Shown: piece after piece, positions 13,155 through 17,467 of the stretch | Layout of the letters: every line of letters begins with the position of its first letter | How positions within the stretch are numbered: the first letter of the stretch is position 1 | DNA from: Candidatus Omnitrophota bacterium | Lineage (GTDB): Bacteria > Omnitrophota > Gorgyraeia > Zapsychrales > Zapsychraceae | Length of the DNA stretch: 54,858 nucleotides | Direction: 5' to 3' | Assembly (NCBI GenBank): GCA_020053475.1 | Contig: JAGVNC010000043.1 | Coordinates: 1-54,858 of the forward strand | Translations under genes and position numbers: made by a program | The notes under the pieces: model-generated | The model's input: the letters and a program-made list of their open reading frames with translations, nothing else | Told to the model about the DNA's origin: nothing | Databases searched by the model: none

Positions 13155-13160
13155 AAATTC

Positions 13161-13290
13161 GTCGCTCGTTTCTCGCCGCTTGTCCCGTGGAAGGCAAAGC
13201 CTTCCCGGGATTTTAAATCCCTGAAATCGCTTTGCGATTTCAGGGGATCGCTAGCAAAATTTGAGCGGCGATAGACAAGCGACGAGCGAC
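13161..13290. repeat. Nested palindromic repeat: outer inverted arms enclosing two hairpins
   Basis: Outer gtcgctcgt...cgcttgtc / gacaagcgacgagcgac; inner CCCG-T-GGAAGGC-AAA-GCCTTCC-CGGG (13184-13209) and CCCTGAAATCGC-TTT-GCGATTTCAGGG (13219-13245). Confidence 0.8.
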
Positions 13291-15823: not shown

Positions 15824-17467
15824 TTGATCCTCATGCCGCAGAATCGTTTTCTACTTTTCATTCTTCTGGTTCTCACATTTTTCGTCTACCAGCCGGGGTT
15901 GAATAAACAATTTCTGAACTGGGACGACGAAATCCACATTACACAGAATCCGCAGGTGATTTCGCTGGCCCTATCTAATATCCGTGATATTTTTACCCAG
16001 ACTGTTAACCGCACATATATTCCCTTAACAACACTGTCGTTTGCCATCGAGCATCAATTTTTCGGGTTTAATTCGTTTGTTTTCGCTGTTACGAATGTGC
16101 TTTTGCACGCGGCCGTTGTTGCGCTTATGTTTTTCTTGGCGTTGAAGATGGGATTATCCCGCGGCGCGGCATTTTTCGCCGCGTTACTTTTCGCGATTCA
16201 TCCGATGCATGTCGAGTCGGTGGCTTGGCTGACCGAACGCAAGGACGTTTTGTATTCTGTGTTTTATCTTCTGGCGTTACATCAATATTGGAATTATTTG
16301 GAGCGGGGAAAGAGGCAGTCGTATTTTTTGTCGATCCTTTTTGCTTTATTGAGCATGTTGTCAAAGCCAATGGCGTACAGCTTGCCGTTAGTCTTATTTA
16401 TTTTTGATTGGCTCTACGGGATGCGGGAAACCGTTCGCGGGCCCCTCCGCCCGGCGTGCCCGCCCCGGCAAGCCAAAGCGGCGGGCCGGGGGATCCTCCC
16501 GCTCACTGGTTTCCCGCATCACCTATTAAACAAAATCCCATTTTTTTTGATCGTTATCCCATTGGGATTAATTACGCATTTAGCTAATCGCCATGTTTTG
16601 ACCGTGAATGCCGACGTTGGCCGGGCATTTTTGACAGCCGTCTGGACATTTACGTTTTACATCCGCAAATTCCTTTGGCCGGAAAACATTTCGCCAATTT
16701 ACAGCTTGCCTGAACCGATCAGTCTGTCCAATCCTGAGTATCTTTTGGCTGCGGGGATCTTCGCCGCTCTAATTTTCTGCACGATTTTATTCCGCAGAAA
16801 TAAATGGCTAGTGTTCGCGGCCGTGTTTTACGTTGCATCCATTATTTTACTGATCCGTTTCAACACCGCCTCAGTTTTTACTGCCGTCCAGGACCGGTTC
16901 ATGTATTTGCCTAGTTTAGGGGTTTGTTTGTTGTTTGGTTATGTTGCGGACGACGTGCTGGAATCGTGGCGGAAAAACAAAATTGCTTTCCGGTTAGGTG
17001 TCGTTTACATCAGTTTAATGTTTTTGTCGCTTTCTTGGGCAGCGACTCAACGCGTTGAAACGTGGAACAATAATTTGACATTCTGGAATCACGTTATTAA
17101 AAATAATCCCACGATTGACTTCGCTTATTATAATAGAGGGAAAGCGTATGAAAAGCAGGGACTTGTCCCCGAGGCCTTGAGTGATTACACAAAGGCGATT
17201 GAAATAAATCCGCAATTCACGAAGCCTTACAATAATCGGGCAATTTTGTTCCAGAAGCAAAGAATGTATACTAAAGCGCTGGACGATTATCAGCGCCTCG
17301 TAGCACTCGACCCTAATTCTGTTTTGGTTTATTACAATCGCGGGCTGTTGTATCTGGAATTAAAAGAATATCCCGAAGCTCTTCGTGATTTTGACAAAGC
17401 AGTGGCGCTTAACCCAAATTTTGCCCCGGCACATCACGCCAAAACCCTGGTGCCCACAGTCCGATGA
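15824..17467 (+). CDS. Polytopic membrane protein with C-terminal TPR repeats (TMTC / O-GlcNAc-transferase-like)
   Basis: NWDDEIHIT..N, HPMHVESVAWLTERKDVL motif, multiple TM segments, three TPRs. ATG at 15833 also possible. Confidence 0.85.
   Translation: MILMPQNRFLLFILLVLTFFVYQPGLNKQFLNWDDEIHITQNPQVISLALSNIRDIFTQTVNRTYIPLTTLSFAIEHQFFGFNSFVFAVTNVLLHAAVVALMFFLALKMGLSRGAAFFAALLFAIHPMHVESVAWLTERKDVLYSVFYLLALHQYWNYLERGKRQSYFLSILFALLSMLSKPMAYSLPLVLFIFDWLYGMRETVRGPLRPACPPRQAKAAGRGILPLTGFPHHLLNKIPFFLIVIPLGLITHLANRHVLTVNADVGRAFLTAVWTFTFYIRKFLWPENISPIYSLPEPISLSNPEYLLAAGIFAALIFCTILFRRNKWLVFAAVFYVASIILLIRFNTASVFTAVQDRFMYLPSLGVCLLFGYVADDVLESWRKNKIAFRLGVVYISLMFLSLSWAATQRVETWNNNLTFWNHVIKNNPTIDFAYYNRGKAYEKQGLVPEALSDYTKAIEINPQFTKPYNNRAILFQKQRMYTKALDDYQRLVALDPNSVLVYYNRGLLYLELKEYPEALRDFDKAVALNPNFAPAHHAKTLVPTVR
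16420..16520. mobile_element. Palindromic GC-rich insert with 13-bp terminal inverted repeats, in frame within the TPR gene
   Basis: GATGCGGGAAACC (16420-16432) / GGTTTCCCGCATC (16508-16520), perfect; 60 of 75 inner bases are G/C. Confidence 0.65.

Follow-up and report, generated by a model that had tools for sequence, protein, structure and literature searches.

A dispersed, probably mobile palindromic hairpin inserted in frame in a TPR membrane-protein gene of an Omnitrophota bacterium

Rickettsia palindromic elements (RPEs; Ogata 2000, 2002, reviewed in PMC10969869) are palindromes of ~100–150 bp that occur in many copies and lie in frame in unrelated genes, and they encode a conserved peptide (PMC10969869). 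GTAG and CGTC REPs are small hairpins with stems of 5–13 bp, mostly intergenic with some intragenic; the CGTC class has a CGTC tag, an 8–9 bp stem and a 4–5 nt loop, includes RPE-4 and RPE-6 and lacks a dedicated transposase, and in Xanthomonas different REPs sit at about one site of the recB gene (PMC3733652). Mitochondrial repetitive or double hairpin elements and GC clusters are compact, mobile-like and scattered, some of them intragenic and retained in RNA (PMC2800124, PMC4478555).

The locus described here lies in a 54,858-nt contig of a Candidatus Omnitrophota genome (JAGVNC010000043.1, assembly GCA_020053475.1; hereafter the window). The host gene encodes a membrane protein with TPR domains at its C terminus (domain search), which both the earlier note and we read as TMTC/PMT-like. 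Homologs were present in 55/55 genomes searched; in this lineage the TPR membrane proteins form a large family of paralogs, with 19 matches in the own genome and up to 45 in relatives. The spacing from the end of a hydrophobic stretch (...DWLYG) to LLNKIPFF is constant in 30 aligned homologs from related genomes, with one distant homolog 2 residues shorter, and the window protein alone carries 27 extra residues (+81 bp). Because these residues are missing in 30/30 homologs, the gene has a net 81-bp in-frame insertion, in line with the suggestion of the earlier note that residues foreign to the protein had been added here. The homologs have a short, variable linker of 7 residues at this point, and the left arm of the element encodes MRET where they have RKxS/T. 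Since the element itself measures 101–106 bp, more than the net gain, ~20–25 bp of ancestral linker were replaced. The ORF stays open across the element, translating it as RETVRGPLRPACPPRQAKAAGRGILPLTGFPHH, and in the host protein the segment may be no functional domain but a passenger linker that is tolerated.

The palindrome itself agrees with the earlier description of it: perfect 13-bp inverted repeats (Table 1) separated by 75 nt, 60 of them G/C, with an inner stem GCCCGCC/GGCGGGC at 16458-16464/16480-16486. Its GC fraction is 0.75 versus 0.44 in the remainder of the host gene, and its predicted RNA fold (-69.2 kcal/mol, z = -4.8) was equalled by 0/200 shuffles. By a composition-based estimate, 0.11 perfect 13-bp inverted repeats with a spacer of ≤120 nt are expected by chance in the window; taken together with the other copies in the own genome, the feature is far beyond chance. 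An independent scan of the window returned one other arm pair of equal score, imperfect, at 13159-13285. This long inverted repeat contains several hairpins (GGGATTTTAAATCCC, CTGAAATCGCTTTGCGATTTCAG) and immediately precedes an acetyl-CoA synthetase-like ORF; a similar string of hairpins adjoins the C89 copy (L003 1339-1440). By comparison with relatives, the ends of the element are probably at GGG and CACC. The window copy is nested, with a 33-nt hairpin (module C) exactly in the loop of a conserved core (core A), and looks like a shortened version of an outer frame seen in relatives (frame B) around core A around module C. No target-site duplication was found in its flanks.

Table 1. Features of the host gene, the window copy and related copies, with the basis of each assignment.
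Feature	Position	Strand	Basis or remark
Host ORF, membrane protein with C-terminal TPR repeats	15824..17467 (start 15824 or 15833)	+	ORF list, TPR domains, 30 aligned homologs
Left arm, perfect inverted repeat GATGCGGGAAACC	16420..16432	+	inverted-repeat scan
Right arm GGTTTCCCGCATC	16508..16520	+	inverted-repeat scan
Probable full palindromic element GGGATGCGG...CCGCATCACC, net +81 bp in frame	16418..16523	+	ends placed from the relatives' frame GGGTCCTGCC...GCGTCACCC
Conserved core A, 5' half GGGCCCCTCCGCCCGGCGTG	16439..16458	+	copy comparison
Conserved core A, 3' half GATCCTCCC	16492..16500	+	copy comparison
Module C, 33-nt hairpin CCCGCCCCGGCAAGCCAAAGCGGCGGGCCGGGG within core A loop	16459..16491	+	elsewhere only in own-genome copy C76
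Own-genome copies	contigs C8 (window), C14, C32, C62, C76, C89		DNA search and core pattern search
Frame-B modules CGGGTCCTGYC...GCGTCACCCG	L003:1339-1440, L004:1570-1660		own genome; enclose unrelated hairpins in place of core A
In-gene copies	window TPR protein, C76, C32 (MoaE-ThiF), L034 (CcsA-like), L038 (RimO), L048 (glycosyltransferase), L062 (flavodoxin)		

Second copies, for which the earlier note had proposed a search, were found both in the own genome and in relatives. A DNA search located four further places in the own genome and a core pattern search brought the total to six real copies, which have in common the core GGGCCCCTCCGCCCGGYGTGGATCCTCCC, somewhat degenerate in C76. Module C sits exactly between GTG and GATCC of the core in C8 and C76 and in no other of the 384 genomes of the phylum; with only these two copies, both in the own genome, it was rejected as a widespread independent family. 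The tip of the hairpin, ~27 nt, is nearly invariant and includes a 9-nt loop as well as CCCC and TCCT, which are C/T-rich sides of internal loops. Beyond it, arm pairing extends up to ~30 bp and the arm sequence varies among copies. In a set of 47 copies with arms >30% different, 866/1316 arm positions were paired within copies versus 543 ± 19 with partners shuffled (z = 17); the set includes a few chance matches, so this signal is only diluted. Among the 11 copies of the low-GC metagenome-assembled genome (MAG) MGRI, identity between copies is 99% for cores, 51% for inner arms and 29% for outer arms. These copies thus form a family with one almost invariant tip and complementary but sequence-variable arms, and a tip that is constant while the arms drift yet stay complementary is the signature of a hairpin structure that is itself the mobile or selected unit. 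Frame B (CGGGTCCTGCC...GCGTCACCCG) surrounds many copies in relatives, and in the own genome it occurs near two copies, enclosing quite different hairpins. In G059 the flanks of the copies (L057, L096, L192) are long and conserved (TTCTTGATGGCCTGGAGG...CCTCCAGGYCATCTTCACAT), and this version, present in 16 copies, is larger and MITE-like. Near the C32 copy lies a ~110-bp palindrome (L010:548-663) unrelated to core A, which miRNA precursor models match on both strands. The hairpin family appears to be previously undescribed: Rfam covariance models gave only sub-threshold miRNA-model matches on palindromes and no family, and a literature search by sequence string returned no match for the element.

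The family is patchy across distantly related groundwater bacteria. The core was present in 20/384 genomes of the phylum (nearly all MAGs, one genome per species), with 1–22 copies each and over many families, and a reversed control pattern gave 0 matches. Only one of 31 other genomes of the own family (G028) carries it. Group II intron domains scoring above Rfam gathering scores lie ~0.5 kb from the G028 copy (L016:2001-2136, minus strand); G028, an incomplete genome, has no match to the reverse transcriptase profile RVT_1. A scan of one genome per species yielded at least 100 stretches with the core; among the matches listed, nearly all are from Candidatus Omnitrophota and 'Deltaproteobacteria' MAGs and there is no record from Rickettsia. 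Matches in Streptomyces and other actinomycetes have no complementary arms and were discarded as chance, and a few in Clostridia and elsewhere look like chance as well. Phages and plasmids were considered as vectors and rejected, with no exact core in IMG/VR, none in INPHARED phages and only chance-level partial matches in PLSDB.

A simple ORF model places 67 of the 81 copies between genes, often tens of bases or less from the end of one, and their orientation relative to neighbouring genes is inconsistent. The copies in real genes (Table 1) have the core in sense orientation in 7/7 cases. All six frames of the core are free of stops, which helps to explain its tolerance in genes, not its sense orientation. 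Two further copies in the own genome are also in frame: the C32 copy is in the linker of a MoaE-ThiF fusion whose homologs are mostly shorter there, and the C76 copy begins an N terminus, presumably translated, and shares the reading frame of the window copy. The core is translated in three frames (C8, C76, L038 and L048 in one, L034 in another, C32 and L062 in the third). RimO of G061 carries an in-frame copy in a variable linker where 21/21 aligned relatives have no element, and in relatives of G061 (L194, L195, L196) the same linker holds different short in-frame palindromes (GGGGTCAGACCC/GGGTCTGACCCC; GGATTGTCCCC/GGGGACTGTC), so that this linker either attracts insertions as a hot spot or tolerates them.

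Empty sites, also sought in the earlier note, were found at the protein level for the window copy and RimO, and at the DNA level for other copies in a congener. The DNA comparison covers one genus-like group (CSMAG_2758, here G060, with CSMAG_2684, CSMAG_2709 and KR13; flanks 82–98% identical), and in the window's own genus the comparison is at the protein level. The orthologous places of 13 copies were examined in 1.16 Mb of G060. Four are occupied (L111; L062; L056/L076; L068-4060), those of L083-660, L119 and L068-1066 are empty, the element is also missing at L060 and L084, and that of L126 has only its right half. At the L032/L065 site, G060 has frame B with a small palindrome CCCGATATAATCGGG instead of core A, and CSMAG_2709 has nothing. 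Occupied, empty, partial and tip-swapped sites thus indicate that copies are gained and lost within the genus and that tips are exchanged or replaced inside the frame, and this pattern of presence and absence suggests that the family is mobile. Possible short repeats resembling target-site duplications occur at L119 and L083; none is consistent across copies. Orthologous pairs had at first pointed to a core under purifying selection (Poisson 2e-7); this claim was withdrawn because both members of each pair had been found by a core-demanding search, and the less biased G060 pairs differ in the core at some positions and include one core-deleted remnant.

Compared with the described systems, RPEs appear closest in behaviour and CGTC/GTAG REPs closest in form. 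The new family shares with RPEs the palindrome size, the many copies, the recurrent in-frame insertion in unrelated protein genes and the lack of a known transposase. The RPE likeness proposed in the earlier note therefore holds for a selfish-looking palindrome that tolerates in-frame insertion, as a likeness of kind by description, but does not extend to membership: the host is not Rickettsia, a conserved tip is combined with variable arms and nested modules, and different genes read the core in each of the three frames, so that, unlike RPEs, it encodes no conserved peptide. Like REPs, the copies are small hairpins, mostly intergenic and some intragenic, the CGTC class likewise having no dedicated transposase, and the different palindromes in the RimO linker recall the REPs of Xanthomonas recB. 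Unlike REPs, the arms reach ~30 bp and a 27-nt tip is conserved. The CGTC tag is not conserved at the window copy, in which GCATCACC stands in place of the GCGTCACC of relatives; the arms are far longer than in that class and the loop is 9 nt or nested. As a lead, CGTC-REP stems of the type ATTCCCGC/GCGGGAAT CCA presumably resemble the arms GCGGGGAAYCC of C89 and of one G043 copy (G043a). The element is similar to bacterial MITEs in being short and non-autonomous-looking with terminal inverted repeats (13 bp and perfect), but it lacks a consistent target-site duplication, its inverted repeats differ between copies, and no parent transposon with the same ends was found in the own genome. Mitochondrial hairpin elements are also compact, mobile-like and scattered, some within genes, a resemblance of kind only, as those are mitochondrial and their sequences unrelated.

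We consider it likely that the window copy is a dispersed non-coding palindromic element that moves as a hairpin and entered a short, variable linker of the TPR membrane protein without loss of frame. The folded hairpin would be the mobile form, most likely as single-stranded DNA at a replication fork, and the element would be non-autonomous, with a trans-acting recombinase or transposase that recognises its conserved tip. Preferred sites of insertion may be linkers that are flexible, gaps between genes and the tips of palindromes already present, and the fast-drifting arms could be kept complementary by templated repair of quasi-palindromes or by selection for folding. Some findings count against this explanation: no mobiliser was found with the Y1_Tnp and RVT_1 profiles tested in the 20 carrier genomes, no target-site duplication is consistent, and the element is longer than the net gain; nor does purely passive insertion explain the sense orientation of all in-gene copies. 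That orientation would suit a functional RNA or DNA motif, its invariant tip being the binding site of some host protein such as a nuclease, terminator or nucleoid factor, with copies kept for mRNA-end regulation and in-gene copies as by-products, as would the near-identical core over distant families and phyla, the maintained arm pairing and the frequent position of copies near gene ends. We think such a function improbable, given the patchy presence, the frequent empty sites between congeners, the lack of consistent orientation of intergenic copies, the in-frame copies in unrelated housekeeping genes, the bias in core conservation at orthologous sites noted above and the lack of an Rfam family.

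Mobilisation as a REP-type repeat by a RAYT (Y1/IS200-like) transposase would account for copies both between and within genes and for an imperfect hairpin with internal loops, features also of REPs (PMC3733652), and the own genome has three Y1_Tnp matches. However, Y1_Tnp is absent from 7/20 carriers (G043, G057, G059, G060, G061, G062 and G368), high-copy carriers among them (G059, G061 and G062, with 9–26 copies); a GTAG tag at copy ends is not shared among the copies compared; and the conserved part is the tip of the hairpin, not its foot, which leaves this route very improbable. Reverse-transcriptase-based mobilisation was not supported, RVT_1 being missing from 19/20 carriers, the own genome included. 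Snap-back synthesis, by which host DNA next to each insertion is duplicated in inverted form, would fit the low-GC MAG, where arms are unrelated between copies and nearly perfect within a copy. Host-derived arms were at first favoured from the MRET and RKxS/T correspondence and dropped for the window copy once its arms proved to resemble those of C89 and one G043 copy; the arms here thus belong to the element. The inner arms of the low-GC MAG, half identical between copies, and the missing arm sequence at the empty G060 sites also argue against snap-back, which we regard as quite unlikely. Template switching can give rise to long palindromes, and an expansion or palindrome born locally in the host gene, or an assembly artefact, might look similar at a single locus; that this core turns up at numerous unrelated loci of many MAGs from several studies already refutes this origin, to which we assign next to no probability.

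Within the favoured mobile-hairpin explanation, a more specific reading is tentative and, on balance, doubtful: in these 'Russian-doll' hairpins, a recombinase that is neither a RAYT nor a reverse transcriptase would recognise internal-loop modules GCGGG-4nt / 4nt-CCCGC and insert hairpins into hairpin tips. Such elements would grow by nesting, swap tips at one site, cross phyla and add in-frame linkers to proteins. Earlier descriptions made protein-coding palindromes almost peculiar to Rickettsia. The family described here is independent of those and spans phyla, and its empty, occupied and tip-swapped sites are defined, so that one can test by what the tip is recognised and whether one palindrome inserts into another.
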